A stretch of DNA of 64,000 nucleotides from Oricola sp. (lineage in GTDB: Bacteria > Pseudomonadota > Alphaproteobacteria > Rhizobiales > Rhizobiaceae): NCBI RefSeq assembly GCF_022763245.1, contig NZ_JALEGV010000041.1, positions 729,223 to 793,222 on the forward strand, read 5' to 3'. The first letter of the stretch is position 1, and each line of letters starts with the position of its first letter. Under the pieces are notes generated by a model. The model did no database searches and was not told the origin of the DNA. It worked only from the letters and a program-made list of their open reading frames with translations. A program made the translations under genes and the position numbers. This document shows positions 1,830 through 17,704 of this stretch, one piece after another.

Positions 1830-1904
1830 CCGACGAGGCGGGCGGGCCGGGTGGCGGGCATCCTCCGGCGCGAACGACACGGCATTTCGACAGGGGACGA
1901 CTTG

Positions 1905-3161
1905 ATGCTGCTGGGCATAATCGGCGACGATTTCACCGGATCGAGCGACATAGCCAACATGCTGGCGAAGGGCGGAATGCGGACCGTCCAATATGTCGGC
2001 ATTCCCGACGGCCCGGCGGGAGACGACGTCGAGGCCGGTGTTGTGGCGCTGAAATCGCGTTCGATCCCGGCGGACGAGGCGGTCGCCCAGTCGCTCGCCG
2101 CGCTTGAATGGCTGCGGGGGCAGGGATGCCGCCAGTTCGTCTTCAAATATTGCTCGACCTTCGATTCCACGCCGGAGGGCAATATCGGGCCGGTCGCCGC
2201 GGCGCTGGCCGAAGCCCTTGGGGCGGAGGGCGTGTTGTCCTGTCCGGCCTTTCCGGCCACGGGCCGTTCTGTCTATCAGGGACATCTCTTCGTCGGCGAC
2301 AGGCTCCTGAGCGAAAGCGGCATGGAGCAGCATCCGCTCACCCCGATGACCGATCCGGACCTGCGCCGATGGCTCGCTCTTCAGACACGCGGTCCGGTCG
2401 GCCATGTTCCGGCGCAGACCGTGTGGGCGGGAACCGAAGCGATCCGGCAGCGTGCGTCGTCAGAGGCGGCGCGAGGGTGCCGGCTCGTCATCGCAGACGC
2501 CGTTCGCGACGAGGATCTCGTCGCCCTCGGTGAGGCGGCCGCCAACGATCGCCTGCTGACGGGCGGGTCTGGCATCGCCCTCGGCTTGCCGGAGAATTTC
2601 CGAAGGCAGGGGCTCTTGAAGGGCGGCGGCGACGCGTGGCGTCCTCAGCCCGAAGGGCGGGCGGCGGTGCTGTCGGGGTCGTGCTCCCGGGCCACGCGCG
2701 CCCAGGTGGGCGTCCATGCCGCAAACAGCCCATGCCTTCATGTGACCGCCGACCACCTCGTCAACGGCGAGATGACGGCGGCGACGGCAGTCGAATGGGT
2801 CATGCGGCAAGACGGGCTGCCGCTCGTCTGCTCGTCGAGTGACCCTGCGGCAGTCGCCGCTGCGCAAGCGCGTCATGGCAGCAAGGCCCTGGCCGCGCGG
2901 TTCGAGGCCTTCTTCGCCGCCGTGGCCCGTGGCCTTGTGGAGCGAGGCATCACCCGGCTGATCACCGCCGGGGGCGAAACCTCCGGAGCGGTGGTCGAGG
3001 GCTTGGCGCTTCGGGAGCTGGCGATCGGTCCGGAGATCGATCCGGGCGTGCCGGCGCTGCGTGCCTCTGACGGTCTTACACTGGCGCTCAAATCGGGTAA
3101 CTTCGGCTCCGAGGACTTTTTCGGCAAGGCGGAAGCCATCCTCGCGGGACGGGTGCGATGA
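1905..3161 (+). CDS. otnK: 3-oxo-tetronate kinase (four-carbon acid sugar kinase family)
   Basis: A 418-residue kinase of the four-carbon acid sugar kinase (DUF1537) family, which phosphorylates 3-oxo-tetronates at O4. The N-terminal IGDDFTGSSD (residues 5-14), KYCSTFDSTPEGNIGP further on, and a C-terminal glycine-rich GGETSGAV nucleotide-binding motif are all characteristic. The frame is open from 1851, but the ATG at 1905 begins exactly at the conserved N-terminus and has AGGGGAC upstream, so 1905 is preferred. The stop overlaps the start of the following aldolase gene by four bases (ATGA), indicating translational coupling. The family assignment is strong; the exact stereochemistry of the substrate cannot be read. 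Confidence 0.88.
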   Translation: MLLGIIGDDFTGSSDIANMLAKGGMRTVQYVGIPDGPAGDDVEAGVVALKSRSIPADEAVAQSLAALEWLRGQGCRQFVFKYCSTFDSTPEGNIGPVAAALAEALGAEGVLSCPAFPATGRSVYQGHLFVGDRLLSESGMEQHPLTPMTDPDLRRWLALQTRGPVGHVPAQTVWAGTEAIRQRASSEAARGCRLVIADAVRDEDLVALGEAAANDRLLTGGSGIALGLPENFRRQGLLKGGGDAWRPQPEGRAAVLSGSCSRATRAQVGVHAANSPCLHVTADHLVNGEMTAATAVEWVMRQDGLPLVCSSSDPAAVAAAQARHGSKALAARFEAFFAAVARGLVERGITRLITAGGETSGAVVEGLALRELAIGPEIDPGVPALRASDGLTLALKSGNFGSEDFFGKAEAILAGRVR

Positions 3162-3802
3162 GGGAAACGAGGCTCCGTGAAGACATTTGCTTCTGGGCCG
3201 GTTCCCTGTTCGCCCGGGGGCTGACAGGGGGGGCTTCCGGCAACATCTCGGTGCGGACCGAGGATGGCGGCCTGCTGGTCACGCCGACCGGGACGAGCTT
3301 CGGACGCCTCGATCCGGCGCGCCTGAGCAGGTTCGACGCCGCCGGCAACCACGTCGATGGGGACAAGCCGACCAAGGAGATGCCGCTGCACGCGGCCTTC
3401 TACGAGACGAGGAGCACGGCCGGCGCCGTCGTCCATCTGCATTCGACGCATTCCGTCGCGCTCTCCGTCCTGCCGGATGTCGATGCGGACAACATGCTGC
3501 CGCCGCTCACGGCCTATTCGATCATGCGCCTGGGAAAGGTCGCTTTGCTGCCCTACTACCGGCCCGGCGATCCGCAGATGGGCGAGGCGGTACGCGGGCT
3601 CGCCGGCCGTCGCTCGGCCGTCATGCTGGCCAATCACGGACCGGTGGTCGCAGGAAAGGAACTGGAGGCAGCGGTCTTCGCGATCGAGGAACTGGAGGAA
3701 ACGGCACGCCTGGCGCTTATGCTGCGGGGCGCGGACCCGCGCATGATGGATCCCGCTCAGATCAGGGACGTCGTAACGCATTTCGACGTGGAGTGGGACT
3801 GA
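3158..3802 (+). CDS. otnC: 3-oxo-tetronate 4-phosphate decarboxylase (class II aldolase family)
   Basis: A 214-residue class II aldolase/adducin-fold protein. The zinc ligands expected for the family are visible as H93 and H95 in HLHSTHS and H160 in NHGPV, with the catalytic glutamate E74 in TKEMPLH, and the phosphate-binding GGASGNIS loop near residue 24. In characterised acid-sugar pathways the OtnC enzyme decarboxylates 3-oxo-tetronate 4-phosphate, made by OtnK, to dihydroxyacetone phosphate. Its four-base overlap with otnK fits that sequential role. It is the last gene of the operon: the next gene, the sulfatase, is convergent. No clear terminator was seen in the 54 bases between them. 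Confidence 0.87.
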   Translation: MRETRLREDICFWAGSLFARGLTGGASGNISVRTEDGGLLVTPTGTSFGRLDPARLSRFDAAGNHVDGDKPTKEMPLHAAFYETRSTAGAVVHLHSTHSVALSVLPDVDADNMLPPLTAYSIMRLGKVALLPYYRPGDPQMGEAVRGLAGRRSAVMLANHGPVVAGKELEAAVFAIEELEETARLALMLRGADPRMMDPAQIRDVVTHFDVEWD

Positions 3803-3856: not shown

Positions 3857-6214
3857 CTATTCGAACGGCCCCATGAGCTTGAGAAGCGCCGCGCGCAACT
3901 CTTCCGGCGACTTGCGAAACGGCGAGTCGGGCGCCAGTTCGCCAGGGGTGTAAGTCACGGAGTCGAGCGCGCCCGTGTAAGGGAAGCAGCCGTGCCGTTG
4001 GCGGATATCCCGGCTGACGGGTGATCGGCGATCGATGCCGACATCGATGCCCTGGAACGGGCTCATGCCCCAGAACAGCTCGAAATCCTGTCCCGAGGCG
4101 ACGTGAGCGCCGTCGACGGAAAGCGTCACCGTCGAAGCGCCGCCCGCCGTCGCCGACACGTCGAGCGTGATCGCCGTCGCGCCCTGCGGAACGGCCCCAC
4201 CGTCGAGGAGCCGGGTCGTGTTGGCGAAAGTGTGGGCGTAGCGGAGGCGACCGTCCTCGACGAAGACCATATATCCGCCGCCCTGGTCGCCATGAGCGAC
4301 GATGACGCCTACATCGCCGGTGCGGTATCCTTGCAGACGCGCGGTGACCGTGTAGGAGCGCAGCTGGATGAGCAGTCGGGACCGGAAACGCGACAGCGTC
4401 GGCGTGCCGGCATAGATCGTCACCGGCTGGACCAGATCATCCTGCTCGCGACTGTGCCAGATCCGCTTCAGGCCGCTTCCGTCATCCAGCGGAAAGACGC
4501 CGTAGCGCTCCGCCAGTTCCTCCCAGGCCTCGGTCAGCGCGCAGAGCCGGTCCGGTTCCAGCGCGGCTAAATCGTTGATCTCGGTCGGGTCGGTGCGCAG
4601 GTCGTAGAGCTCCCAGCGGTCCTTGTCGTAATGCGGGCCACGCTGGTGACGCGCGACGGCTTCCCACCCGTCACGATAGATCCCCCGGTTGCCCTCCAGC
4701 TCGTAATATTGCTCCAGGCGCGATTCTGCGGCCTGCGGATCGGTCAGGCTGGCAGCGAAGCTTCGCCCGACGACGTCTTCGTGGAGCGCGATCTCTGTCG
4801 TATCGCCGGCGCCTCTTGCGAGTTCGAGCAGGGTCGGCAGCAGGTCCGAGACATGCGCATATTGCCGCCGGATGCCGCCTTGGTCGCCGATTCCTTCCGG
4901 CCATGAGATGATGAACGGAACCTGGTGGCCGCCGGCATGGGTGAACTTCTTGAACAGCCGGAACGGCGTGTTGGAGACCCGGGCCCAGCCCCGCGGGTAA
5001 TGCGGCATCGTGTGCTTGCCGCCGATCTCGTCGAGGTTGATCTTGTCGGGCGTGAGCGCGGCCAGTTTCTGCGCGCCGACCGGTTCGCCGTCCAGCTTGG
5101 TGTAGAGGAACGACACTGCGCCCAGATAGCAGGGTGATCCGCCCTGGCCGCCTTCACCGCTTGCGCCATTGTCTGACAGGAACACGAAGATCGTGTTGTC
5201 GAGCTCGCCCATGCGTTGGAGTGTGTCGCACAGCCGGCCGACATTGTCATCGACGCTGGTGATCATCCCCGCATAGGCTTCCATGTAGCGGGCGTAGAGC
5301 CGGCGTTGGTCGTTAGACAGCGTGTTCCAGGCCGGTATCTCGTAGCCGGCTTCCTCGGCTTCCGAACAGGCCACGTCGGGCGCGACGATGCCGAGCGCCT
5401 TCTGGCGCTCCAGTCGGGTCGCCTGCGCCTCGTCCCATCCGGAATCGTAACGGCCGCGGTGCCGGGCCATGTCATCCGCCTTGGCGTGGAGCGGCGCGTG
5501 GACGGCGGCATGCGAGAAATAGAGAAAGAAGGGGCGCCTGGGATTTGCCGCCTTCGTTTCCTTGACCATGCGAATGGCGCGATCGTTCAGGTCGTCGGTG
5601 AGGTAATAGTCCGGCGGAAAGCTGTCGATCGACAGGATCGTGTTGCCCTCGATCAGCTCGTGAGGCTCGTGCAGATTGGTGAAGCCGTCGAGGAAGCCGT
5701 AGAACTGGTCGAAACCGCATTGCAGCGGCCAGGCGTGTCGCGGGCTGGCGGCCGAGGTGTAGAGTTCCTTCGCCAGGTGCCATTTGCCCACCATGAAGGT
5801 CGAATAGCCGCAGCGGCGGAAATATTCGGGCAGGGTAGGGATGTCCGACGGCATCTCGTAGCGCGAATGGGGAAAGCCCGAATCGTAGTGGACGACATCG
5901 GAATATCCGACCGAATGATGGTTCATCCCGGTCATCATCGAGGCCCGCGTCGGCGAGCATTTCGGCGCGACGTGGAAATTCGTGTATTTCAGCCCGCGCT
6001 CCGCCAGGCGGTCGATGTTGGGGGTCGGGATCTCGCTGCCGAAACAGCCGACATCGGAATAGCCCATGTCGTCGAGCAGCATGATGATGACGTTGGGCGC
6101 CTTGTCGCCGGCGACCGGGTCCTGCCGCCAGGACGGCTGCGACTGCGCATAGAGCCGTCCGACATGTCCGTCGGTTTCGGTCGTGTCGGCGTTGTTCGTC
6201 ATCCTGTCCCTCAT
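3857..6214 (-). CDS. Large cytoplasmic arylsulfatase (type I, formylglycine-dependent)
   Basis: A 785-residue type I sulfatase that would hydrolyse a sulfate ester. The activation motif C-S-P-T-R lies at residues 86-90; C86 is the residue converted to formylglycine by FGE. Metal and sulfate ligands are recognisable as D48-D49 (LLDDMGYSD), GKWH at 143-146, H239 in HAAVHAPL and D348-N349 in FLSDNGASG. The last 170 residues form a predicted beta-rich accessory domain often found in arylsulfatases of this size. The N-terminus (MRDRMTNNADTTE) is polar with no signal peptide, so the enzyme should act in the cytoplasm. It is the last gene of an operon with an ABC importer, and an FGE gene lies about 9 kb away. 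The substrate is unknown. Confidence 0.92.
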   Translation of the reverse strand: MRDRMTNNADTTETDGHVGRLYAQSQPSWRQDPVAGDKAPNVIIMLLDDMGYSDVGCFGSEIPTPNIDRLAERGLKYTNFHVAPKCSPTRASMMTGMNHHSVGYSDVVHYDSGFPHSRYEMPSDIPTLPEYFRRCGYSTFMVGKWHLAKELYTSAASPRHAWPLQCGFDQFYGFLDGFTNLHEPHELIEGNTILSIDSFPPDYYLTDDLNDRAIRMVKETKAANPRRPFFLYFSHAAVHAPLHAKADDMARHRGRYDSGWDEAQATRLERQKALGIVAPDVACSEAEEAGYEIPAWNTLSNDQRRLYARYMEAYAGMITSVDDNVGRLCDTLQRMGELDNTIFVFLSDNGASGEGGQGGSPCYLGAVSFLYTKLDGEPVGAQKLAALTPDKINLDEIGGKHTMPHYPRGWARVSNTPFRLFKKFTHAGGHQVPFIISWPEGIGDQGGIRRQYAHVSDLLPTLLELARGAGDTTEIALHEDVVGRSFAASLTDPQAAESRLEQYYELEGNRGIYRDGWEAVARHQRGPHYDKDRWELYDLRTDPTEINDLAALEPDRLCALTEAWEELAERYGVFPLDDGSGLKRIWHSREQDDLVQPVTIYAGTPTLSRFRSRLLIQLRSYTVTARLQGYRTGDVGVIVAHGDQGGGYMVFVEDGRLRYAHTFANTTRLLDGGAVPQGATAITLDVSATAGGASTVTLSVDGAHVASGQDFELFWGMSPFQGIDVGIDRRSPVSRDIRQRHGCFPYTGALDSVTYTPGELAPDSPFRKSPEELRAALLKLMGPFE

Positions 6215-6241
6215 GCGGCGCGGTTCGATACGGTGCTGCCC

Positions 6242-6270
6242 GCCCGGCCGACAGGCCAGACGGGCCGGGC
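6242..6270 (-). other. Intercistronic stem-loop between binding-protein and sulfatase genes
   Basis: An 8-bp perfect GC stem (GCCCGGCC pairing with GGCCGGGC, 13-base loop) lies three bases past the stop of the binding-protein gene. No T-run follows, so it is less likely a terminator than a 3' stabiliser, the arrangement that raises binding-protein mRNA over downstream genes in many ABC operons. That role is inference. Confidence 0.5.
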
Positions 6271-6272
6271 CG

Positions 6273-7367
6273 TTATTTCAGCAGGCGCGTCAGTTCTTCG
6301 CGGGCGGCGTTCTGCATGCCGGCGCGTTCGGTAAGCGCGGGCAGTTCCACGATGTTAGGCACTTTGCTGAGCGGGGGAAGCCCCTCCGGCGTGCCGAGAT
6401 CGCCTTCCTGCGTGCCGTAGAAACCGGCGGCGCCGATCAGCGCCTGGGCTTCCGGCGTGAAGACCCACGATGCGAGCAGTTTTGCGGCAGCCATGTCCGG
6501 CGCGTTCTTGATAACTGCGAAACCGATCGGCAACAGCACGTTGGCGTCGTCAAGCGGGAAGTTGTATTTCAGCGGCGCGCCCTTCTGGATGGCTGTGTTG
6601 ACCATGCCGTAGACCGGGCCGACACCGACGGCGCGCTGACCGGTGAGTACGGTCTGGACCAGCGGTGCCCAGTCGGCGTCGATCTTGGTGTCGTTGGCCT
6701 TCAACTTGCCCAGGTAGTCGTCGGTCATCACGCCCGCATGCATCAGCGTCATGAACAGTTCGGCAGTCCCGCCCGGATTGGTAGGATCGGAAATCCCGAC
6801 CTTGCCGGTCCATTCGGGCCCGACCAGTTCGCCCCAGGAGGTGGGCCTGTCTGCTTCTGACACAAGGTCGGTGTTGTAGAAGTAGCCCGACACGTTGAGC
6901 GACGAGAACACGAAGGCATTGTCCGGTCCGACCCAGTAGGGATCCACCTTGGCGGTTTCCGGAGTGAAGGGCTCGATCTGGTTCGCGTTCAGCAGCGGGA
7001 CCATCGCGGTCGCGCCAACATGGACGATGTCCGCGACATGCTGGCCGCTGGTGAACTCCTGGCCGATGCGGGCAAACAGGGCGGCCCCGAATACGATCTG
7101 CGTCTGGACCTCGATCTCGGGATAGCGCGCCTGGAAGGCGTCGTAGACGCCCTTGTACGCCTTGGCGAGCCCGCCATAGATGACGAGCTTGTTCTCGCCA
7201 TTCGAAATTGCCTGCTGGTAGAGCGCTTCAAGGCTCGCGGCGGCATCCGCGCCGCCGAGCGCGTCCGCATCGGATTGCGCCGAAGCCTGGCCGGCCAGTA
7301 GCAGCATGGTGGCGATGCCCGCCGATGCGATACAGGCTGCGCGTCGTGTGAGGGTCATTCTGGTCAT
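6273..7367 (-). CDS. ABC transporter periplasmic binding protein (iron/polyamine type, family 1)
   Basis: A 364-residue extracellular solute-binding protein resembling the Fe3+/putrescine/thiamine group. A classical signal peptide covers about residues 1-29: basic MTRMTLTRR, a hydrophobic core, and an ASA cleavage site. Family features include KLVIYGGLAKAYKGVYDAF near the mature N-terminus and GKVGISDPTNPGGTAELF in the middle, where iron-binding relatives also have a sulfate/phosphate-like pocket. Related systems carry iron, polyamines, phosphonates or other anions, so ligand cannot be assigned from sequence. Its genes sit between the ATPase and a sulfatase, which suggests a sulfated organic ligand. 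The start is the first ATG of the signal peptide. Confidence 0.87.
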   Translation of the reverse strand: MTRMTLTRRAACIASAGIATMLLLAGQASAQSDADALGGADAAASLEALYQQAISNGENKLVIYGGLAKAYKGVYDAFQARYPEIEVQTQIVFGAALFARIGQEFTSGQHVADIVHVGATAMVPLLNANQIEPFTPETAKVDPYWVGPDNAFVFSSLNVSGYFYNTDLVSEADRPTSWGELVGPEWTGKVGISDPTNPGGTAELFMTLMHAGVMTDDYLGKLKANDTKIDADWAPLVQTVLTGQRAVGVGPVYGMVNTAIQKGAPLKYNFPLDDANVLLPIGFAVIKNAPDMAAAKLLASWVFTPEAQALIGAAGFYGTQEGDLGTPEGLPPLSKVPNIVELPALTERAGMQNAAREELTRLLK

Positions 7368-7410
7368 GTGTTTCGTCCTTTCTCTTGGGAGGGGAGAGTG
7401 GGGCGACCGT

Positions 7411-8517
7411 CTAGGCGGCGGTCACGATGACTTCGTCTGGCGAGAGATGCACCACGGCGCTGTCGCCGGGCCTAGCCTCGGCCAGCCCGGCACGGCCCAA
7501 TTCGGCGACCGGAACAGTGGCGACCACCGTTTGGCCCAGGCACGAGAGGTTGAATTGCTGGGTGTCGCCCAGAAAGGCGACCGCTTCGATGGTCGCGTCG
7601 AAATCGTTCGCGGCGCGGTCGGCCGAGGTCGCTGCCGTCAGGGCCACGCGGCTGGCGCGCAGCGCGACGCAGACGGTTTCGCCGACGGCACGGGGTTCGC
7701 CGCCTTTCGCCTTGAGCGCCTGCCCGCCATTCATACGGATGGCGCAGGAATCCGGACCGTACTGTTCGACGGTTCCGGTCAGCAGGTTCTCGAACCCGAC
7801 GAAGTCGGCGACGAAGCGATTGCGGGGCTGGCGGAAGATGTCGGCCGGTGTGCCGATTTGCATGACTTCGCCCTTGTTCATCACAAGCACGCGATCCGAC
7901 ATCGCCAGCGCTTCCAGCTGGTCATGGGTGACATAGACCGCCGTGATCCCCAGTCGCTGCTGCAGGGCGCGCAGTTCGGTGCGCATGCTGGCGCGCAGCT
8001 TGGCGTCGAGATTGGAGAGTGGCTCGTCGAAAAGGAGGAGGCCTGGATGGGCGGAGACCGCCCGCGCCACCGACACGCGCTGTTGTTGGCCGCCGCTCAG
8101 CATTGAGACCGACCGGTCGGCATAGTCGGCGAGCCCGACGAGGCGCAGCGCGTCCTGCACCTTCTGCGCGATGTCGCGTTTCGCCGCCCGGCGCATGCGC
8201 AGCGGATAGGCGACATTGTCGAAGACTGTCATGTGCGGCCAGAGTGCGTAGCTCTGAAAGACCATGCCGAGATTGCGCGATTCGGGCGCGACGAAGACGT
8301 TCTGGTCGGGCGACGCGACGATGCGGTCTCCGAAACGGATTGTTCCACCCGTCGGCTTTTCGAGTCCGGCGATCATCCGCAGGGTCGTGGTCTTGCCGCA
8401 GCCGCTCGGACCGAGAAGGGTGAGGAACTCGCCTTCGGCGACATCGAGCTCAAGGCAGTCGATGATGGATTTCGATCCGTAGCTCTTTGCAAGGCTGCGA
8501 ATGTGGATGTCAGTCAT
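7411..8517 (-). CDS. ABC transporter ATP-binding protein (PotA/FbpC type)
   Basis: A 368-residue ATPase that would energise the adjacent importer. Walker A is GPSGCGKT (residues 36-43), the signature is LSGGQQQR, Walker B is LLLFDEP with the D-loop SNLD and the H-loop YVTHDQLEA; a C-terminal TOBE-type domain follows. The frame is open for 13 further codons upstream, but the ATG at 8517 matches the conserved N-terminus and has GGAGG five bases away, so it is preferred. This start overlaps the end of the permease gene by eight bases, implying coupling. It belongs to the group serving iron, spermidine/putrescine and phosphonate importers. Confidence 0.92.
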   Translation of the reverse strand: MTDIHIRSLAKSYGSKSIIDCLELDVAEGEFLTLLGPSGCGKTTTLRMIAGLEKPTGGTIRFGDRIVASPDQNVFVAPESRNLGMVFQSYALWPHMTVFDNVAYPLRMRRAAKRDIAQKVQDALRLVGLADYADRSVSMLSGGQQQRVSVARAVSAHPGLLLFDEPLSNLDAKLRASMRTELRALQQRLGITAVYVTHDQLEALAMSDRVLVMNKGEVMQIGTPADIFRQPRNRFVADFVGFENLLTGTVEQYGPDSCAIRMNGGQALKAKGGEPRAVGETVCVALRASRVALTAATSADRAANDFDATIEAVAFLGDTQQFNLSCLGQTVVATVPVAELGRAGLAEARPGDSAVVHLSPDEVIVTAA

Positions 8518-10312
8518 TGCGGCCTCCGGTCCGGGAGTCGGTGAGCGAGGGAGCAAGGTCTCCGGTGCCGACCTTGCGGCGGGCGTTCAGTCCGGCGAAT
8601 GCGCGGATCAGCCCGACGGCGATGAGCGCGACCAATATGCCGCCGAGCTGGATGCAGAAGATCGCGGCCGTCTGGCTCACCTCCCCGGCGATGTAGAGAT
8701 CATAGGCCTGGACCGGCACGGTCTGGCTGGTTGCGGACGACAGCATGACCGGGATGGCCAGATTGCCGGAAATCATGATGCCGGCCACCGTCCATCCGGC
8801 GACGAAGCTCGGCGCGATCAGCGGCAGGACGATGCGGAAGAATGTCGCGATCCGGCCGCCGCCGGCGACCCGCGACGATTCCTCCAGTTCCGGCCCGATC
8901 TGCACGAGAGCGGCGTCCGAGACGCGCGACACCACCGGGATCACGGCGACGATCAGCCCGATCATCAGGATCCAGATCGTCGAATAGAGCAGTTTCAGCC
9001 CCGGAAGCGAGATGTAGGCCCACAGCATGGCAAGCCCGAGCACGACGCCGGGCAGTGTCCAGGGCAGCCACGTCGTGAATTCGAGCACGTGACGCGTCGT
9101 GCGCCCGGAATGCCGGCCGACATAGCCGATGATCACCGCCAGCGTCATCGCGACGAAGCCGCCGATGACGGCGACGATGGCGGTGTTGACGAGCGACCGG
9201 ACGATCTGGGAATCGTCCAGCACGGCCAGGTAATTGTCGAGCGTGAAACCACGATAGAGGCCGAAGACCGGCTGCAGCGATCCGACGAGCATCTGCACCA
9301 GCGGCAGGATGACGGCCAGCAGCGCATAGACCAGGATCAGCCCGGTCGCAACGAAGCGCCAGCCGCCGATGTCGGCTGGTTCGGTCTTGTGGCCCTTGCC
9401 TGAAATCACGGCATAGCTGCGCCCCGCCATGATGCGCGACCGGACGAGCACCAGCGCCATGACGGTCAGCGTCAGGAGCAGGGAGAGTGTCCCGGCGGCG
9501 GCGTAGTTTGGCGGCAGGGTCTTGTTCACCGCGTCGTAGATCTGCGTCGCCAGCACGCCGATCCCGGCGGGCAGGCCGAGAAGCAACGGAATGTCGAAGG
9601 ATTCCAGCCCGTTGGTGAAGACGAGGATGGCGACGCCCGCGACGGCCGGCGTCAGGACGGGTATCGTCACGCGGAAGAAGGTCCTGACGGCGCCCGCGCC
9701 GGACGTTCTCGACGCCTCCTCAAGCGTGCGGTCCATCGATCCGAAGGGCCCCACCATCAGGAGGTAGCCGAAGGCGGTGACCTTCAGCGTCAGGACGAAG
9801 ATGATGCCGGACCAGGATTCCACGTTGAACGGGCTCCACGACGTTCCGGTCACGGTGCGGATCGTGTAGTTGATCAGGCCGGCGCTCTCATTGCCGAGCA
9901 TCGCCCAGCTGAGACCGAAAAAGAGCTGCGGCGTGGCCAGCACGACGACCATCAACGGCGTTACCAGCCAGCGCAAGGGCGTGTTCGTCCTCGCCACGAC
10001 CCAGGAGAAGAACACCGCGAGCAGGGTCACGAAGATGGTCAGGAAGAACGACAGGAACAGCGTGTCCTGCACACCTTCGGCAATACCCGGGTTCGTGAAG
10101 AGATTGCGAACGCCGTCCAGTGTCCAGTCGCCGGCCGCGCCGGGTGGCGTGGTGCGGAAACTGCCGATCGCCAGCATCAGGACCGGCCAAACGAAAAGAA
10201 CGAACATGGCGAACGCGAAAGCAAGCCAGATCGCCCGACCGAACGCGCGCTGCGCAATCACGCTCATGTCCGGTTCAATGGCTTTGATGCCGGCATCGGC
10301 GCGGTCAGGCAT
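8510..10312 (-). CDS. Fused ABC transporter permease with two MetI-type domains
   Basis: A 600-residue inner-membrane protein that carries two complete permease domains in one chain, as in the iron(III) AfuB/FbpB permeases. Each half has an EAA-type cytoplasmic loop that would dock with the ATPase: the first reads LEEASRTSGAGAVRTFFRVTIPVL and the second ELEESSRVAGGGRIATFFRIVLPLI, shown here only as landmarks. About twelve hydrophobic spans are visible. The ATG at 10312 overlaps the preceding amidohydrolase gene by eight bases, matching the coupling seen at the next junction; ATGs at 10336 and 10267 are alternatives, and none has a strong ribosome binding site. Confidence 0.9.
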   Translation of the reverse strand: MPDRADAGIKAIEPDMSVIAQRAFGRAIWLAFAFAMFVLFVWPVLMLAIGSFRTTPPGAAGDWTLDGVRNLFTNPGIAEGVQDTLFLSFFLTIFVTLLAVFFSWVVARTNTPLRWLVTPLMVVVLATPQLFFGLSWAMLGNESAGLINYTIRTVTGTSWSPFNVESWSGIIFVLTLKVTAFGYLLMVGPFGSMDRTLEEASRTSGAGAVRTFFRVTIPVLTPAVAGVAILVFTNGLESFDIPLLLGLPAGIGVLATQIYDAVNKTLPPNYAAAGTLSLLLTLTVMALVLVRSRIMAGRSYAVISGKGHKTEPADIGGWRFVATGLILVYALLAVILPLVQMLVGSLQPVFGLYRGFTLDNYLAVLDDSQIVRSLVNTAIVAVIGGFVAMTLAVIIGYVGRHSGRTTRHVLEFTTWLPWTLPGVVLGLAMLWAYISLPGLKLLYSTIWILMIGLIVAVIPVVSRVSDAALVQIGPELEESSRVAGGGRIATFFRIVLPLIAPSFVAGWTVAGIMISGNLAIPVMLSSATSQTVPVQAYDLYIAGEVSQTAAIFCIQLGGILVALIAVGLIRAFAGLNARRKVGTGDLAPSLTDSRTGGRND

Positions 10313-11684
10313 GGGCGAGGCCGTCCAGTTCGGCATAGGCGGGGAGAGTGGTGTCGAGCGGCGCTCCGTCGCGCACGACGATGCGGTCGCTTTCGGACCG
10401 GGACAGGATTTCTGACCAGGAGCGGCCTTCGAACAGAATGAAATCAGCGCCGCATCCGGCTTTCAGCGTACCCGTCTGATCCATTCCCATGGCGCGCGCC
10501 GGGTCGGTCGTGACCGACGCGATCCAGTCGCCGCTCGGATGGTCGAGATGCGCGATCCGCGTGCCCAGCCGGAACGCGTCGAGCATGTCGAGATCGCCAT
10601 AGGCGTGAAAACTGTCGCGGGTGTTGTCGGAGGCGAGCGACACGGAAATGCCGCGACGGCGCATCTCGTGAAGCAGCGTCACACCACGCCAGCGCGGCGT
10701 CGTGCCGTCCGTGCGCCGGTCCTGGAGGTAGAGATTGCAGGCCGGCAGGCTGACGATGGCCAGTCCCGCGGCGGCGACCGCATCGAGCGTTTCGTCCGCC
10801 GTCGCTTCATCCTGCACGGCCAGCGAGCAGCAATGGCCGACGAGCACGTTCCCCTGATAGCCGTTCCGCAACACGGCGTCCGCGACATGACGCAGCACGT
10901 CGGAGGCCGGGTCTGCGGTTTCGTCGGCGTGGAAATCGAGGTCGAGACCGTGCCTGTCCGCAGTCTGTATTATCACGTCGAGACAATGGTCGATCTCCGG
11001 ATCAGGATACACCGCCGCGCCGAGCACGCCGTCCGCCGCTTTCACATGGGTGACGACGCGGTCCAGAAAGTCGCGATCCCGGACCATCTGCACCGGGAAC
11101 AGGCTGGAGCCTTGTATCTCGATGCGCCCCTGCCATTCCTGCCTGATGCGGGCGAGAACCGGCCATGAAATGCCATCCTGCGGCGGATGGGAGTCGATAT
11201 GGGTCCGCAACGCGCGCGTGCCGTGATGAAACGCCGAGCGCAGGGCGAAGTCCATTCGCGCATGGACGTCCTCGGCAGTCCAGTGCGCCTCGCGATCCTT
11301 GCGCATGGATGCGGCTGCGCCCGCAAAGGTGCCGTCGGCGGGTTCCGCCCGACCCAGAATCTGCGCCTTGTCGATATGAGTGTGGCAATCGACGAAATTC
11401 GGGATCATCACGCGCCGTCCGGCATCGATGGATGCCGTTTCCGCGCCGGCTTCCGTGGCGCCGGCCGGGCTGATCGTCTCGATCCGCCGATCGCAAATCC
11501 TCACGTCGGCGAGAGCAAAGTCGTCGGGCGCGTCTACACCAAGTGGCGGATACGTCACGCTGTCATGCAGTCGCACATTGCGCAGCGTGAAGCTGCCTTG
11601 AGATGCGGCCGCGACCGCCTTGCGCAACTGCGCCTGGTCTGAAGGGAAAGATGCGGAAGGCTGCAGGGTTTGCATAGCGGTCAT
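10305..11684 (-). CDS. Cytosine-deaminase-like amidohydrolase
   Basis: A 459-residue metal-dependent hydrolase of the amidohydrolase superfamily, closest in motif layout to CodA-type cytosine deaminases. The first metal motif is H101-x-H103-x-D105 in CHTHIDKA, followed by DFHADET, VGHCC and the terminal aspartate in LASDNTRD. These support one metal and hydrolysis or deamination of a cyclic amide, imine or N-substituted compound. CodA relatives are functionally diverse, so cytosine is not assumed. It is the first gene of the ABC-transporter/sulfatase operon and overlaps the permease gene by eight bases, suggesting that it processes the imported compound. The ATG at 11684 has AGGTGG six bases upstream; the frame is open to 11756. 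Confidence 0.85.
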   Translation of the reverse strand: MTAMQTLQPSASFPSDQAQLRKAVAAASQGSFTLRNVRLHDSVTYPPLGVDAPDDFALADVRICDRRIETISPAGATEAGAETASIDAGRRVMIPNFVDCHTHIDKAQILGRAEPADGTFAGAAASMRKDREAHWTAEDVHARMDFALRSAFHHGTRALRTHIDSHPPQDGISWPVLARIRQEWQGRIEIQGSSLFPVQMVRDRDFLDRVVTHVKAADGVLGAAVYPDPEIDHCLDVIIQTADRHGLDLDFHADETADPASDVLRHVADAVLRNGYQGNVLVGHCCSLAVQDEATADETLDAVAAAGLAIVSLPACNLYLQDRRTDGTTPRWRGVTLLHEMRRRGISVSLASDNTRDSFHAYGDLDMLDAFRLGTRIAHLDHPSGDWIASVTTDPARAMGMDQTGTLKAGCGADFILFEGRSWSEILSRSESDRIVVRDGAPLDTTLPAYAELDGLAHA

Positions 11685-12113
11685 GGCAGCCACCTGGTCG
11701 TCATGTCCCTCAATCCCGCGACTCAGACAATCGGTCGAGCCGCATCGCGCCGGCATTGGCCTTGCGCGTCGGGTGCGAACGAAGGCCGCGGCCGTCGGCG
11801 GAGTTCTCGTTCGACACGATCGCCGCCGGCATCATCGCGCAAGTCTCGCGCTTTCGATCGTGAACCGTTTCATCCATTTCCTGTCCGCAATGCCCCATGT
11901 TCCTGCGCCAACGATCAGGTCTGAAAAAAACCTACCAAATGATCAGAGCAGATGCTATGAAAAATTTCAAGACTGAATCGGGAGGTGCTGAATGGCAGGT
12001 GCCAAGCAGCAGTTGGCGGCATCGCCGAAACGGAAATGCACAAATTCGTCTCTGCGCGGATGTGCTGAGCCGGGGCATCGCCTCGTGGCGCGCGGACAGA
12101 AGAGGGATTGCCC
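11685..12113. promoter_or_regulatory. Divergent intergenic region between the amidohydrolase and FAD-oxidase operons
   Basis: This 429-base gap separates two divergent operons and must hold promoters for both. No coding region was recognised. The part around 11915-11965 is distinctly AT-richer than its surroundings. Within it, 11931-11945 read on the minus strand as TGATCATTTGGTAGG, a partial match to the TGACCA-N2-TGGTCA palindromes bound by RutR-type TetR regulators. A TetR gene lies downstream of the FAD oxidase, so an operator here is plausible but unproven. Confidence 0.45.
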
Positions 12114-13490
12114 ATGACAACGTTAGAAGCACCGGACGCGGAATCGCGGTTGGATGCGTTCAAGGCTCTGATCGAGGGCATTCGCTGGCACGGCGAGCCG
12201 CAATATCTCCAGCTTCGGTCACGCGACTATTATTGGTACAGCCCGATCCTCAAGGAACAGCTCGACGACAAGCGTGCCGACATCATCGTGCTGCCGTCCA
12301 CCGAAGACGAGGTAGAGCGTGTGGCGGCGGCGGCCGTTCGCTGCCATTTGCCCCTGACGTTGAGAGGCGGCGGGACCGGAAACTACGGGCAGTGCGTGCC
12401 GCTGGAAGGCGGTATTGTGATGGACCTGACGCGCCTCGACAAGGTGCTGTCGATAGAGGACGGGCATGTGCGCGTTGAGGCCGGTGCCCGCATCGCGCGC
12501 CTGGACAACGCGGTGCAGGAGACCGGGCAGGAATTGCTGATGTACCCTTCGACCCGCACCATCGCGACGATCGGCGGCTTCGTCGCCGGCGGATCGGGCG
12601 GCATCGGGTCGCTGCGCCACGGTATGCTGCGAGACGCAGGCAACGTCGACTACGTCAAGGTTGTCACCCTGGAGGCTGAGCCTCGCTGCATCGAGTTGCG
12701 CGGCACCGATGTCCAGAAGGTTCATCACGCCTATGGCACGAACGGCATCATCCTGGAGGTTGGGCTGGGGCTGGCGCCTGCAACCGACTGGATCCACACG
12801 GCCGCGCTGTTCGACGGCTACGATCGGGCACTTCAATTCTGCCTGGATGCCTGCGATACCGGGCTCGATCTCTATCTGCTGACCTGTGTCGAGCGTCGCT
12901 TCTCGCCCTATTACCGGAAGTTCGGCGATCGATTTCCGCCCGACCGGGATGCGGTGATCGCCATGGTCGCCCCGCAGCACATGCAGGCATTCCGAGACGA
13001 GGTGGAGAAACGCGGCGGATCGGTTTCGTTTTCGCTTCGCAAGCCCGAACTGTCGGATGCGGGCCTTCAGCCGGCCTATGAATACGGGTGGAACCACACC
13101 ACGCTCCAGGCGCTCAAGGTGGACAAGAGCTGGACCTATCTGCAGGTCGCCTGTCCGGCTCCGTTCGATCCCGCGCTGGCGATGCGCCAGATGGAACGCT
13201 ACGGAGACGAGATATACTGGCACCACGAATTCGCGAGGATGGGCGGGCATCTTCAGGTTTTCACGCTGCCCTTGGTAAGATGGCGCGGGGCGGACCGCAT
13301 CGAGACAGTGATGGCCGAGATCGAGGACGATGGCTGCACGGTCTTCAATCCGCATGTCGTGACGATCGAGGAGGGGGGCATGAAGCAGATCGACGAAGCG
13401 CAGATCGCGTTCAAGCGGCAGGCCGACCCCCACGGCCTCATGAATCCCGGCAAGACACTCGGCTGGACCGAGGACATGGCGCGCCTCTAG
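12114..13490 (+). CDS. FAD-binding (PCMH-type) oxidase/dehydrogenase
   Basis: A 458-residue flavoprotein of the FAD-linked oxidase family with a PCMH-fold FAD domain in the N-terminal half. The expected blocks are seen: ADIIVLPSTEDEVERV, then LTLRGGGTGNYG binding the pyrophosphate, GGIVMDLTRLDKV, and a glycine-rich GGFVAGGSGGIGSL lining the flavin. The C-terminal end HGLMNPGKTLGW matches D-lactate dehydrogenase and glycolate oxidase GlcD-like enzymes that oxidise hydroxyacids or alcohols. No signal peptide is visible. The ATG at 12114 follows GAGGG at eight bases; a TTG two codons earlier is less likely. It is divergent from the sulfatase operon and cotranscribed with a TetR regulator. Substrate unknown. 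Confidence 0.85.
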   Translation: MTTLEAPDAESRLDAFKALIEGIRWHGEPQYLQLRSRDYYWYSPILKEQLDDKRADIIVLPSTEDEVERVAAAAVRCHLPLTLRGGGTGNYGQCVPLEGGIVMDLTRLDKVLSIEDGHVRVEAGARIARLDNAVQETGQELLMYPSTRTIATIGGFVAGGSGGIGSLRHGMLRDAGNVDYVKVVTLEAEPRCIELRGTDVQKVHHAYGTNGIILEVGLGLAPATDWIHTAALFDGYDRALQFCLDACDTGLDLYLLTCVERRFSPYYRKFGDRFPPDRDAVIAMVAPQHMQAFRDEVEKRGGSVSFSLRKPELSDAGLQPAYEYGWNHTTLQALKVDKSWTYLQVACPAPFDPALAMRQMERYGDEIYWHHEFARMGGHLQVFTLPLVRWRGADRIETVMAEIEDDGCTVFNPHVVTIEEGGMKQIDEAQIAFKRQADPHGLMNPGKTLGWTEDMARL

Positions 13491-13537
13491 ATGATCGGAT
13501 TTCGCAGCCGAACCATCGACCGGAAAGTGAAGCGAGG

Positions 13538-14197
13538 ATGACGACGACGCACAGCACGCCCGCCAAGGGGCAACCGGAAGAGCAAAGCGTGGTCAAGCGC
13601 AAGCGTCTGGCGATGTTCAGGACCATTCGCGAGGCCGCCATCCGCGAATTTGGCAAGAACGGCCTGTCGGGGACATCGACCCAGGCGTTGGCCGATGCCG
13701 CCGGGATCACCAAAGCCCAGTTCCACTATTACATCACGTCGAAGGAGGACCTCTATCGCGAGGTGCTGAACTACATCATCGCGGAATGGTCCGACATGTT
13801 CTTCGCGTCTGCGACCGCGGACGATCCCGCGACGATCATCGCCGATTACCTGCGGATGAAGATCCGCCACTCGGTTGAGCATCCGGACATGACGCGGCTC
13901 TTTTCGCTGGAGATGGCGCGCGGCGGCATCGACCTCGAAAACCATTGGGCGGACATCCTGGGAAGCGCCGGCAAGGCCATCAAGATGATCGGCGGATGGT
14001 GCGAGGCGGGCCTGATCAAACCGGTCGATCCTGTCCTGTTCCTGATGAACATGTGGGCCGTGAGCCAGTATTACGCGGAATACGAGGTCCAGGCCCGGGG
14101 CCTGATGGGTACGGCGGAAGGCGAGCCGCTCGACGCCGAGCGGATCACGCAAGAGGCGATAGAGCTCTTCCTCGCCAGGGCCGGCCTTGCCGGCTGA
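13538..14197 (+). CDS. TetR/AcrR-family transcriptional regulator
   Basis: A 219-residue one-component repressor. The N-terminal helix-turn-helix is clear: residues 26-40 form the first helix (FRTIREAAIREFGKN), and TSTQALADAAGITKAQFHYY (47-66) gives the recognition helices, followed by the usual K-x-DLY boundary. The C-terminal ligand-binding half resembles RutR/YcdC-type regulators, where ligands are often catabolic intermediates. It starts 47 bases after the FAD oxidase and probably controls the divergent promoter region at 11685-12113. The long upstream extension of the frame is inside the FAD gene and is not used; GAGG lies just ahead of the ATG at 13538. Confidence 0.88.
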   Translation: MTTTHSTPAKGQPEEQSVVKRKRLAMFRTIREAAIREFGKNGLSGTSTQALADAAGITKAQFHYYITSKEDLYREVLNYIIAEWSDMFFASATADDPATIIADYLRMKIRHSVEHPDMTRLFSLEMARGGIDLENHWADILGSAGKAIKMIGGWCEAGLIKPVDPVLFLMNMWAVSQYYAEYEVQARGLMGTAEGEPLDAERITQEAIELFLARAGLAG

Positions 14198-14237
14198 GAC
14201 GGCGGGCAAACGCAAGCGACAAGGACGAAGCGCCGAC

Positions 14238-15563
14238 ATGACCGAACCCGCAGAAGACGCCGGCTGGATGGCGCGCCGCTATTATCGCCGTGCGGTCGAG
14301 GCTGCCATTTGGGGCATGCCGGCCGCCTCCACCCAGGCCATGATCGAGGCGTTCCACGATTGCGGGGCGCGGTTTGGCGACATCGTCTATTTCTCGCGTC
14401 TGCCGGATTGGCGCTGGCAGATCACCACGCCGAACGCGACGACTTACTACGCGTTCTCGTCACTGCGTCTCACGGACCGACCGGTGATCCTGACCTTGCC
14501 GCCGACGGAGGGATCGGGGCTCTACGGAAGCATCTTCGATTGCTGGCAGAATGCGCTCGCCGATGTCGGGCCTGCCGGAGAGGATGCCGGCCGGGGTGGT
14601 GTCTACGCCATCCTGCCGCCTGGCTATTCGGGCCCTGTTCCGGATGACGCGGCGATCGTCCGCTGTCCGACGCGCAACGCCTACATCCTCTTCCGCGCCA
14701 TTCCGGCCGACTATGGAGACGAAGGCGTGGCGCGCACGCAGGCGCATATTCACGGCCTCAGGATCGCTGAAATGGACGCGACCGACGAGCAGCGGTTCAT
14801 CGACATTGCGGGCAAGCCTTTCGAGGCGTTTCCGGAGATGGACGACACCTTCTTCGACCGGTTGGCCGCGATCCTGCGTGACGAACCGGTGGGCCGGACG
14901 GACCTCGTCGCGATGGGCATGGCGCACACGCTGGGGATCGGGCGGGACAAGCCCTTCGAACCGGACGCGTCGCAGCGAGAAACGCTCGCCCGCGCCGCGC
15001 GTGAAGCGCAAGCGCAGATGCTGGCGGACAATCTTGAAATCAATCCGCTCTGGCCCGATCGCCGCTGGGGATCGCCGACCTACATCCAGCATGCCCAGAC
15101 AGCCAAGCCGATCCTGAGCGACGAGCGCCTTGACTACGATCGGCGCGCGGCGCTTGCCTATCGCATGTGCGGCGTGCCGAAGACGGCCGGCGCCGCGCGC
15201 TTCTTTCATGTCGTCTGCGATTCTGCGGGCGATCCCTTGCGTGGCGACGAGACCTACCAGCTCTCGATCCCGACGCCGGTGCCCGCCCGCCAGTTCTGGG
15301 CGCTCGCGATCTACGATGCGGTGACCTTCCGGTTCATTCGTGGCGCGCAGGCCGTCGAGTTCAATTCCCTGGCGCTGCCGGATGACGGCACCGGCCGGCC
15401 TGTCGAGATCGTATTCGCTCCCGAGCGGCCGGCGGGTGCGCAGCATTGGATGGAAACCGCGCCGGGCCACAATTGGGCGGCGATCTTTCGCCTCTACGGA
15501 CCCGACGTGGCGGCGCTCGAGGCGGGATGGAAGCCCGAGGACATCGTCAGGCTCGCGCCCTGA
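14238..15563 (+). CDS. DUF1254/DUF1214-type protein without a signal peptide
   Basis: A 441-residue protein of the DUF1254/DUF1214 family, whose members have no established enzymatic role. Landmarks are IWGMPAASTQAM near the N-terminus, FSRLPDWRWQITTPNATTYYAFSSL region, VILTLPPTEGSGLYGSIFD, and a C-terminal part ending in YDAVTFRFI and NWAAIFRLYGP. Most family members are exported, but this N-terminus (MTEPAEDAGWMARRYYRRA) has no hydrophobic core, so the protein is expected in the cytoplasm. It follows the TetR gene by 40 bases and stops directly against the convergent FGE gene. The start was chosen at 14238 because earlier codons lie within the TetR gene. Confidence 0.75.
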   Translation: MTEPAEDAGWMARRYYRRAVEAAIWGMPAASTQAMIEAFHDCGARFGDIVYFSRLPDWRWQITTPNATTYYAFSSLRLTDRPVILTLPPTEGSGLYGSIFDCWQNALADVGPAGEDAGRGGVYAILPPGYSGPVPDDAAIVRCPTRNAYILFRAIPADYGDEGVARTQAHIHGLRIAEMDATDEQRFIDIAGKPFEAFPEMDDTFFDRLAAILRDEPVGRTDLVAMGMAHTLGIGRDKPFEPDASQRETLARAAREAQAQMLADNLEINPLWPDRRWGSPTYIQHAQTAKPILSDERLDYDRRAALAYRMCGVPKTAGAARFFHVVCDSAGDPLRGDETYQLSIPTPVPARQFWALAIYDAVTFRFIRGAQAVEFNSLALPDDGTGRPVEIVFAPERPAGAQHWMETAPGHNWAAIFRLYGPDVAALEAGWKPEDIVRLAP

Positions 15564-16568
15564 TCACGCGTCCGCGGCCACCCGGAACCCGCCATTACCG
15601 GCCGAGCTGTCGGGATCGTTCTGCGTGCGCGAATGGACGTGATACCGGTCGCAATAGCTGACATGGCAAAGATAGGAGCCGCCGCGCTGGACGCGGGCAT
15701 AGCCGCCTGCGGGGCCGACCGGGTCCGTCGCTGGCATCACGCCCGCCTCGGGCAGGGCGCCGAAGAAGTCCTGCACCCATTCCCAGACGTTGCCCGTCAT
15801 GGTGTAGAGGCCGTAGCCGTTCGGTTCGAACGCGTCCGCCGAGGCGGTTCCGATCCACCCGTCATCGCCGGTGTTGACCTTTGGAAACTCGCCCTGGAAC
15901 GTGTTCATCGCATAACGCCCGCCCGGCATCATGTCGTTGCCCCACGGAAATTTCTTGTTCTTCAGGCCTCCGCGCGCCGCGAACTCCCATTCGGCTTCGC
16001 GCGGCAGGCGCAATCCGCCCCACCGCGCATAGGCGACAGCGTCGTACCACGTGACATGCACGACAGGATGGTCCGGGCGAGACGTGACGTCGCTGCCCGG
16101 CCCCTCGGGCGCGGACCAGCGGGCCCCGTCGACCTTGCGCCACCATGGCAGCCCGGGAGGGCTCTCCGGCCAGTTTGCCAGATTGTCGCCCAGCAGCAGG
16201 TGGAAGACGTAGCTCCACCCCTCCTCTTCGGCGACGGTGCTGTATCCGGTCGCTTCCACGAAGCGGGCGAAGTCGCTGTTCGTCACGGTGGTCGGCGCCA
16301 TGAGGAACGGCGAGACCTTGACCTTGCGGCGCGGACTGTCGAGGTCGGCCGGAAAGGTTGATCGCCGTGCGCCCATTTCGAAAATGCCGCCTGGAATACC
16401 CTTCATGCCGGCGCGCAGTTCGTCGGTCAGCGCCGGGCCGCCGGGCGTGACGGCCATGGATCGGGCGATGTAACGCGCATGCGTCGCCACGGGATCGTAT
16501 GCGGCAGCGTTCGTGGACGAGGGTTTTCCGGCCTTGCAGCAAGAGTCGGACGTGTCGGTTCGTGTCAT
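15564..16568 (-). CDS. Formylglycine-generating enzyme (sulfatase-activating)
   Basis: A 334-residue FGE-sulfatase-domain protein that oxidises the cysteine of C-x-P-x-R in sulfatases to formylglycine. The catalytic cysteine pair is intact: C301 and C306 in SYLCHVSYCDRYHVHSR, matching the paired cysteines that distinguish true FGEs from related EgtB or SUMF2-like proteins. The core also shows FEMG, PVVHVTWYDAVAYARW, LPREAEWEFAARGG, FPWG, and TGNVWEWV. There is no signal peptide; the N-terminus MTRTDTSDSCCK holds two extra cysteines. AAGGAAACG precedes the start at 16568. The longer open frame extending to 17543 overlaps the neighbouring gene and is not coding. The likely client is the arylsulfatase at 3857-6214. 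Confidence 0.93.
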   Translation of the reverse strand: MTRTDTSDSCCKAGKPSSTNAAAYDPVATHARYIARSMAVTPGGPALTDELRAGMKGIPGGIFEMGARRSTFPADLDSPRRKVKVSPFLMAPTTVTNSDFARFVEATGYSTVAEEEGWSYVFHLLLGDNLANWPESPPGLPWWRKVDGARWSAPEGPGSDVTSRPDHPVVHVTWYDAVAYARWGGLRLPREAEWEFAARGGLKNKKFPWGNDMMPGGRYAMNTFQGEFPKVNTGDDGWIGTASADAFEPNGYGLYTMTGNVWEWVQDFFGALPEAGVMPATDPVGPAGGYARVQRGGSYLCHVSYCDRYHVHSRTQNDPDSSAGNGGFRVAADA

Positions 16569-16741: not shown

Positions 16742-17704
16742 TCAACCGCAGAGCGCGGCCTTGGCCTCTGCATACTCGCCCTTCAATCGGCCGACGAGAT
16801 CTGCGACGGGAACGACGTCCTTGACCGCGCCGATACCCTGGCCCGAACCCCAAATGTCCTTCCAGGCCTTGGCGCCCGGCGTCGCCGCCTTGTCGAAATC
16901 CATCTTCGACGGGTCGGCCTCCGGCAGGTTGTCCGGATCCATGCCGGCATTGGCGACGGACGGCTTCAGGTAATTGCCGTGGATGCCGGTGAAGAAGTTG
17001 GAATAGACGATGTCCTTGGCTTCGCTGTCGACGACCATCTGCTTGTAGTCGTCCGTCGCGCGTGCCTCGGGCGTGGCGATGAAGGGGGAGCCGATATAGG
17101 CCATGTCCGCGCCCATCGCCTGCGCCGCCAGGATCGAGCGTCCGTTTGCGATCGCGCCCGACAACAGCAGAGGCCCGTCGAACCATTCGCGGATCTCCTG
17201 CACCAGGGCGAAGGGCGAGAGCGGCCCGGCATGGCCGCCGGCACCCGCCGCCACCGCGATCAGGCCGTCGGCACCCTTGCGAATCGCCGAATGGGCGTGA
17301 CGGTTGTTGATCACGTCGTGCAGCACGATGCCGCCATAGGAATGGATCGCGTCGTTGACCTCCGGCACCGCGCCGAGCGACGAGATGACGATCGGAACCT
17401 TGTATTTCACGCACATGGTCAGGTCGTGCTCCAGCCGCCTGTTGGACATGTGCACGATCTGGTTGACGGCGAAGGGGGCCGCCGGCCGGTCCGGGTTCTT
17501 GGCGTCGTGATCGGCCAGTTCCTCGGTGATCTGGGCAAGCCATTCGTCAAGCTGGCTTTCCGGCCGCGCGTTCAGCGCCGGAAACGAACCGACGACGCCC
17601 GCCTTGCACTGCGCGGTGACGAGAGGAGGATGGGAAATGATGAACAGCGGCGCTGCCACGACCGGCAATTGGAGATTGTCCTGCAGGATTGACGGCAATG
17701 CCAT
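16742..17704 (-). CDS. NAD(P)H-dependent flavin oxidoreductase / nitronate monooxygenase family
   Basis: A 320-residue FMN TIM-barrel protein of the nitronate monooxygenase/2-nitropropane dioxygenase family. Features are LQLPVVAAPLFIIS at the N-terminus, VNQIVHMSNRRLEHDL, the FMN-phosphate segment AAGAGGHAG, and SGAIANGRSILAAQAMGADMAYIGSPF. Members oxidise alkyl nitronates or act as NADH:quinone or enoyl reductases, so the activity is not fixed. The start ATG at 17704 is preceded by AAGGGAGGAAACG, a very strong ribosome binding site; an upstream open frame to 17944 is rejected. A palindrome lies 21 bases upstream. Confidence 0.88.
   Translation of the reverse strand: MALPSILQDNLQLPVVAAPLFIISHPPLVTAQCKAGVVGSFPALNARPESQLDEWLAQITEELADHDAKNPDRPAAPFAVNQIVHMSNRRLEHDLTMCVKYKVPIVISSLGAVPEVNDAIHSYGGIVLHDVINNRHAHSAIRKGADGLIAVAAGAGGHAGPLSPFALVQEIREWFDGPLLLSGAIANGRSILAAQAMGADMAYIGSPFIATPEARATDDYKQMVVDSEAKDIVYSNFFTGIHGNYLKPSVANAGMDPDNLPEADPSKMDFDKAATPGAKAWKDIWGSGQGIGAVKDVVPVADLVGRLKGEYAEAKAALCG

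Follow-up and report, generated by a model that had tools for sequence, protein, structure and literature searches.

A nine-gene block in Oricola sp. that may import, desulfate and degrade a small sulfated nitrogen compound

Introduction

What might a bacterium do with a sulfatase encoded beside a complete importer and enzymes of nitrogen-compound catabolism? The question is raised by nine genes at positions 3857-16568 of a 64,000-nucleotide stretch of Oricola sp., here called the window (assembly GCF_022763245.1, contig NZ_JALEGV010000041.1, positions 729,223 to 793,222). They encode a sulfatase, a three-gene ATP-binding cassette (ABC) importer, an amidohydrolase, a flavin adenine dinucleotide (FAD) oxidase, a TetR regulator, a DUF1254 protein and a formylglycine-generating enzyme (FGE), all families that an initial annotation of the sequence had named and that Pfam and NCBIfam bear out. 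Most discussion of bacterial sulfatases concerns polysaccharides or sulfur scavenging. We lean, if modestly, toward reading this block as a single unit for the breakdown of a small sulfated nitrogen-containing molecule, which would be imported, desulfated in the cytosol and then degraded at its core.

A block shared with Ahrensia

A genome-collection scan with the importer's binding protein found one relative (91% identity), at locus L081 of a metagenome-assembled genome (MAG) of Ahrensia sp. SAT55; because the scan depends on exact short peptides, more diverged copies could escape it, and it may not cover records close to the genome of the window. The Ahrensia locus holds all nine genes in the order and relative orientation of the window. 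Protein identity is 85% for the sulfatase, 86% for the ATPase, 87% for the permease, 72% for the amidohydrolase, 79% for the FAD oxidase, 89% for TetR, 76% for the DUF1254 protein and 79% for the FGE over residues 8-333. Synteny is bounded by the sulfatase and the FGE; outside the block (7.5 kb on one side of L081 and 15 kb on the other), only ABC ATPases and one Lrp-type regulator match window genes, at unrelated places. Since the order is the same in both genomes and the shared stretch ends at both block ends, the association goes beyond chance. Ratios of nonsynonymous to synonymous change (dN/dS) of 0.075-0.21 for the nine genes, the FGE value coming from 74 residues only, indicate that they are kept by selection. 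The block is one functional unit, as the initial annotation had supposed. That annotation had also held that a lack of conserved co-occurrence in relatives would speak against it; the whole set does co-occur in Ahrensia, but no other of the 151 genomes in a family sample pairs a sulfatase with the amidohydrolase or oxidase, among the matches listed.

The block is rare: at E 1e-40, its binding protein finds no counterpart among the remaining 150 genomes of the family sample, and at E 1e-30 none among the remaining 396 of a 397-genome order sample. Apart from the Oricola genome itself, the best sulfatases of a 385-genome class sample reach 40-41% identity.

Open reading frame calling, with Pfam and NCBIfam scans of the window, gave the following features:

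3857..6214, minus strand: formylglycine (FGly)-type sulfatase, 781-785 amino acids; PF00884, 207 bits; C86-S-P-T-R
6273..7367, minus strand: periplasmic solute-binding protein (SBP_bac_11/1/8/6) with a signal-like start; nearest to the aminoethylphosphonate (AEP), pyridoxal phosphate (PLP) and iron types
7411..8517, minus strand: importer ATPase, PF00005 and TOBE_2; nearest models PhnT2/PotA, below cut-off; start at 8517 from gene calling
8510..10336, minus strand: fused two-domain permease with two BPD_transp_1 stretches; nearest model PhnU2, below cut-off
10305..~11714, minus strand: cytosine-deaminase-like metal-dependent amidohydrolase of the PRK07583 group; start uncertain, 11627-11756
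from 11924 to about 12003-12032, plus strand: conserved divergent promoter and remnant of a creatininase start; ATG at 11992, rest of the gene gone
12150..13490, plus strand: FAD-dependent oxidase/dehydrogenase, PF01565 (FAD_binding_4); start 12108 or 12150; nearest solved chain 6v42
13538..14197, plus strand: TetR regulator, RutR-like (below the RutR cut-off); TetR_N and TetR_C_3
14238..15563, plus strand: DUF1254/DUF1214 protein (Pfam)
15564..16568, minus strand: FGE; PF03781, 235 bits; CHVSYC cysteine pair

The minus strand reads amidohydrolase, fused permease, ATPase, binding protein, sulfatase. The overlapping operon described in the initial annotation holds for the permease, which as called overlaps the ATPase gene by 8 bp and the amidohydrolase gene by 32 bp, but not for the binding protein and the sulfatase, which follow after gaps of 43 bp and 58 bp, respectively. 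The plus-strand genes for the FAD oxidase, TetR and the DUF1254/DUF1214 protein had been described as facing this operon; they are in fact divergent, back to back with the amidohydrolase gene across some 400-520 bp depending on the choice of starts, and the FGE gene is convergent at the block end. Neither end is marked by a clear step in G+C content.

The sulfatase and its likely place of action

The nearest solved relatives of the sulfatase are the arylsulfatases 7all (E 1.8e-93) and 1hdh (E 6.2e-82), the latter being PAS (AtsA); its catalytic domain aligns with both, and a C-terminal extension reaches beyond PAS. Residues D48, D49, C86SPTR90, K144, H146, H239, D348, N349 and K422 align to PAS, giving the C-x-P-x-R nucleophile, the D/D/D/N metal site and the catalytic K and H of an FGly (type I) sulfatase. 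PMC5066984 describes roles for PAS residues Cys51, Arg55, His115 and Asp317 and assigns AtsA to SulfAtlas family S1_4. With 7all and AtsA (1hdh) as its best solved relatives, the window sulfatase may belong to that family. We take the remaining aligned active-site residues to have the roles usual in such enzymes. In the FGE, CHVSYC aligns to CHESYC of 6s07 (E 3.5e-99), and the cysteine pair presumably binds copper. From these residues, both the sulfatase and the FGE look active. The Oricola genome encodes a second FGE (L090; G000 C14 85001-105000), 63% identical to that of the window and about 7.5 kb from a gene with a sulfatase-like start, judged by eye.

A hydrophobicity scan found no N-terminal hydrophobic segment or signal peptide in the sulfatase, and the N-terminus of the binding protein, MTRMTLTRRAACIASAGIATMLLLAGQASA, is signal-like by eye. 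The initial annotation had likewise described a signal-less, importer-linked sulfatase, and since a sulfatase of this kind is linked to a binding-protein importer, import before desulfation is likely. That much of its topology argument stands. The absence of a signal peptide from the FGE, offered as further evidence, carries no weight because bacterial FGE works in the cytosol. Older experiments on ats genes reportedly also bear on where the sulfatase is located. The claim that the scheme is the opposite of the usual periplasmic one does not hold: cysteine-type bacterial sulfatases are reported to be typically cytosolic, in a paper that drew this from sequence, and in ats clusters an importer accompanies an arylsulfatase. 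The consulted portion of PMC5870055 adds nothing on sulfatase location.

Signal-less sulfatases beside importers are recurrent, as seen in counts from the family sample, in loci L061, L063 and L064 and on a Rhodococcus plasmid. The sample comprised 21 sulfatase genes that fall into a single similarity cluster, that of the window and 20 more from 18 family loci; one of them (L075; scan value 1.02, unclear start) was dropped. The other 20 divided into genes with a signal (values of at least 1.65) and without (at most 0.64), by a hydrophobicity scan, not SignalP, and at a divide picked after the values had been viewed. An ABC ATPase lies within 5 kb of six of the eight sulfatases without a signal and of one of the 12 with a signal (Fisher p 0.004; 0.0095 minus a near-duplicate; 0.02 also minus the window; counts entered by hand). 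In four of the 18 loci (L067, L071, L072 and L075), a DUF1254/DUF1214 gene lies within about 0.6 kb of the sulfatase gene; the window block also holds both.

The closest sulfatase in a plasmid collection, 48.5% identical over 97%, is encoded by a plasmid of Rhodococcus sp. USK13 (L096). It too has no signal peptide (scan value 0.09), and FGE and ABC importer genes lie within about 4 kb of it. Unlike the window, the plasmid encodes an NMT1_2-type binding protein, a phosphotransferase and a short-chain dehydrogenase/reductase, and nothing in its 18-kb stretch matches the amidohydrolase or the FAD oxidase.

The importer and what it may carry

Among solved chains, the binding protein has distant relatives (best E 3.6e-10) that are of the iron type, bind PLP or are putative aminoethylphosphonate binders. 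Against the NCBIfam equivalogs PhnS2, PhnT2 and PhnU2, the importer parts reached 37.1 of 392.75, 350.3 of 457.7 and 119.6 of 593.25 bits, below each cut-off. By these affinities the importer resembles the aminoethylphosphonate/PLP type, not the ats type. Where 7w3w has NYYL, with a tyrosine pair that we take to be its iron ligands, the binding protein has VYGM in a weak alignment (E 6e-5), keeping one tyrosine and replacing the other with glycine, which makes iron a less likely ligand. Binding of iron or polyamine only, which the initial annotation had named as a finding that would count against it, may nevertheless apply. The relatives that bind AEP or PLP take up anionic phospho-compounds, and by analogy a sulfate ester is a plausible ligand. 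A paralogous importer is encoded elsewhere in the Oricola genome (L087; G000 C37), with an ATPase 46%, a fused permease 40% and a binding protein 31-33% identical.

An importer of this type could instead mean that the FGly enzyme acts on a phosphonate monoester or phosphodiester. Aminoethylphosphonate models give the importer parts their highest or nearly highest scores, and phosphonate monoester hydrolases are listed in the FGly sulfatase family (PMC5066984). We consider this highly improbable, given that 7all and 1hdh, the solved chains closest to the enzyme, are arylsulfatases, that its score with the PehA model is 66.7 bits where the cut-off is 900, and that PhnS2, PhnT2 and PhnU2 stay below theirs.

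A second alternative is sulfur scavenging of the ats kind, in which a broad range of aryl or alkyl sulfate esters would be imported for sulfur while the amidohydrolase and oxidase half served an unrelated nitrogen compound, the divergent promoter being shared by chance of assembly. Clusters of the ats type are described (PMC3596284), and in that of Pseudomonas an ABC importer is linked to an FGly arylsulfatase. The window has the same pairing of a signal-less arylsulfatase-like enzyme with an ABC importer, and its sulfatase is nearest to PAS/AtsA (1hdh) and 7all. At L061, L063 and L064, the same set of regulator and importer genes adjoins a signal-less sulfatase, in L061 the LysR and NMT1-type binding protein of the ats arrangement, and a link between sulfatase and amidohydrolase is absent at the other 37 sulfatase places of the family sample, among the matches listed. 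However, the Pseudomonas ats cluster has a LysR regulator, a sulfonate-type binding protein, a second alkylsulfatase and a TonB receptor, whereas the window has a RutR-like TetR, an AEP/PLP-type importer with a fused permease, its own FGE, an amidohydrolase and an FAD oxidase. In place of an NMT1-type binding protein with LysR, it pairs an SBP_bac_11/1/8/6 protein with TetR. The permease and amidohydrolase are also probably co-transcribed, because their genes overlap as called, and the two halves are still linked in Ahrensia although the proteins have diverged by 9-28%. We therefore think the scavenging explanation rather unlikely.

Kinship with a common amidohydrolase/FAD-oxidase cluster

The amidohydrolase belongs to PRK07583 (552.4 bits; NCBIfam cut-off 403). 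Its HxH, H/E, H and D positions, presumably metal ligands, align with those of 4r7w and 1r9z, and the catalytic Asp is followed by N, whereas three aligned chains have S or D there. The enzyme looks active from its sequence, and "cytosine deaminase" is an annotation name. TetR scored 115.1 of the 368 bits set for the RutR equivalog, and its Ahrensia copy 107.3 of 368, both below the cut-off.

The initial annotation had placed the amidohydrolase and FAD oxidase together, and they do form a recurrent pair. At E 1e-60, FAD oxidases occur at 61 places in the family sample, with an amidohydrolase relative within 400 bp at 59 of them, among the matches listed (compared by eye); at the two exceptions (G043:C417 and G051:C16), the genes are about 11.5 kb apart. 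In fetched loci (L042-L046) and in plasmids of Leisingera, Alloyangia and Mameliella, the pair is usually surrounded by a creatininase, an NMT1/THI5-type importer, RidA and TetR, often with a 2Fe-2S ferredoxin and a flavodoxin-like or NAD(P)H oxidoreductase; this cluster is widespread and alphaproteobacterial. The window FAD oxidase is 62-70% identical to the oxidases of this common cluster and groups with a TetR-bearing subset (L042-L046, L092 and L093; support 99/98 in a nine-row set), and its TetR is 44-59% identical to the TetRs of those clusters. The sulfatase and FGE have no match in the same seven loci. The annotation's remark that the combination "does not match a pathway I know" is thus partly answered, in that the oxidase and TetR, and in Ahrensia also the creatininase, RidA and ferredoxin, are kin of recurrent-cluster parts.

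In the open-licence literature, we found no described function for the creatininase/amidohydrolase/FAD-oxidase/RidA cluster, whose chemistry may be in print elsewhere, and no paper on a gene cluster of a formylglycine sulfatase, ABC transporter and amidohydrolase. A solved FAD/FMN-containing dehydrogenase (6v42/6v43) falls in the common-cluster oxidase family (782 bits to the L055 oxidase); no paper on either entry was found in the same literature, and their ligand or paper may name the common-cluster pathway.

The common pairing also occurs elsewhere in the Oricola genome (L041; G000 C19 7001-26000), with importer, RidA-like and creatininase genes. On a Mameliella plasmid, a gene annotated as the choline-sulfatase betC (L094 22901-24439) stands with an amino-acid importer about 6.5 kb past the last common-cluster gene.

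Sulfatase chemistry followed by C-N hydrolysis of a small heterocycle has a precedent. In Shinella, an FGly sulfatase and an amidase act on acesulfame (PMC11500405), and the substrate of the window block might similarly be an N-sulfonated or cyclic sulfamate heterocycle. The Shinella sulfatase is shorter (502 amino acids) and is set beside BetC in that paper, the amidase is of the amidase-signature type, LysR and a TauE/SafE exporter are in the cluster and FGE genes are elsewhere, none of which the window matches; the term ABC transporter is absent from the main text of that paper. We regard this reading as quite unlikely.

A lost creatininase and a probable mosaic origin

Between the amidohydrolase and oxidase genes, the Ahrensia locus has a creatininase gene (L081 4166-5041), and it also has ferredoxin and RidA; none of the three has a match in the window. 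What is left is a promoter stretch that matches L081 5110-5030 at 85% identity over 81 columns (the Ahrensia creatininase gene starts at 5041), and a remnant whose first four residues, MAGA, are the same as in Ahrensia and are followed by an unrelated 37-residue tail. For ferredoxin and RidA, loss from the window and gain in Ahrensia cannot be told apart. Three creatininase-family genes lie elsewhere in the Oricola genome, one of them near the second amidohydrolase/FAD-oxidase pair on C19.

The window therefore departs from the common-cluster set of creatininase, RidA and NMT1 importer; L081 has the first two, with the same importer as the window. Compared with the common cluster, the window adds a sulfatase and FGE, has a replaced importer and carries an amidohydrolase of another clade. 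Because the oxidase and TetR, the amidohydrolase, the importer, and the sulfatase with its FGE differ in their affinities, the block looks like a mosaic in which parts of a nitrogen-compound catabolic core were joined to a different importer and a sulfatase with FGE.

Next to the block and convergent with it, 312-3802 encodes a UxaA-type dehydratase, a 3-oxo-tetronate kinase (OtnK) and a 3-oxo-tetronate 4-phosphate decarboxylase (OtnC), a route for a four-carbon sugar acid; the kinase and decarboxylase exceed their NCBIfam cut-offs. In L044 and L045, relatives of OtnK and OtnC are found some 4 kb away from the creatininase gene that belongs to the FAD-oxidase/amidohydrolase cluster, which suggested that these genes might be block members. 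They were ruled out because the stretch shared with Ahrensia ends at the sulfatase, as was a nitronate monooxygenase gene at 16742-17704 because that stretch ends at the FGE.

Discussion

In the catabolic unit that we favor, a binding protein with a signal peptide and a fused-permease ABC importer would carry the intact sulfate ester into the cytosol, as their anatomy suggests. There, the FGly sulfatase, its active-site residues intact and activated by the block's own FGE, would remove the sulfate. The amidohydrolase may then hydrolyze a C-N bond of the freed core, and the FAD oxidase, by its kinship to the common cluster, may carry out an amine- or alcohol-type oxidation. RidA, encoded in the relatives, points to an enamine or imine intermediate, in keeping with oxidation of an amine by the flavoenzyme. 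The RutR-like TetR probably responds to the substrate or to an intermediate, and with such a regulator, expression would be expected to track carbon and nitrogen supply, not sulfur starvation under LysR-type control. The DUF1254 protein stands outside these proposed steps.

Several points weigh against this reading. The combination is known from two genomes, one of them a MAG, and among 38 sulfatase places in the 151 family genomes, the window alone has a sulfatase near an amidohydrolase or FAD oxidase, among the matches listed. The window amidohydrolase groups with L050-L052 (support 100/100), another clade than those paired with its oxidase's relatives. Without the creatininase, ferredoxin and RidA of Ahrensia, the window may encode an incomplete pathway or one that depends on paralogues. 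The pattern of signal peptides has exceptions, with L070 and L071 having neither a signal nor an ABC ATPase nearby and L073 having both. Lastly, structure models built from two-sequence alignments were too poor to use for either the FAD oxidase or the binding protein (mean predicted local distance difference test scores of 40.7 and 32.4).

The enzyme set favors, as a substrate, a small nitrogen-containing ring or amide with a sulfate ester; by analogy with acesulfame in Shinella, sulfamates are also possible. More tentatively, the block could be a dedicated and self-contained route for sulfated nitrogen heterocycles, such as a sulfated pyrimidine, hydantoin or cyclic guanidine (for example, a uracil- or guanidine-bearing sulfate ester from algae or cyanobacteria). 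In such a route, a phosphonate/PLP-class importer would have taken on sulfate esters as new cargo, ring opening would have to wait for removal of the sulfate, and a pyrimidine-type regulator would be in control; we hold this to be possible, on the doubtful side.

Importing a sulfated compound first is a known strategy, and this combination of parts, joined to a nitrogen-compound pathway, looks new. If our reading is right, uptake of an intact organosulfate would be tied to nitrogen-compound catabolism, offering an entry to the fate of small sulfated metabolites. It would also provide a handle on what DUF1254 proteins and the common amidohydrolase/FAD-oxidase cluster do.

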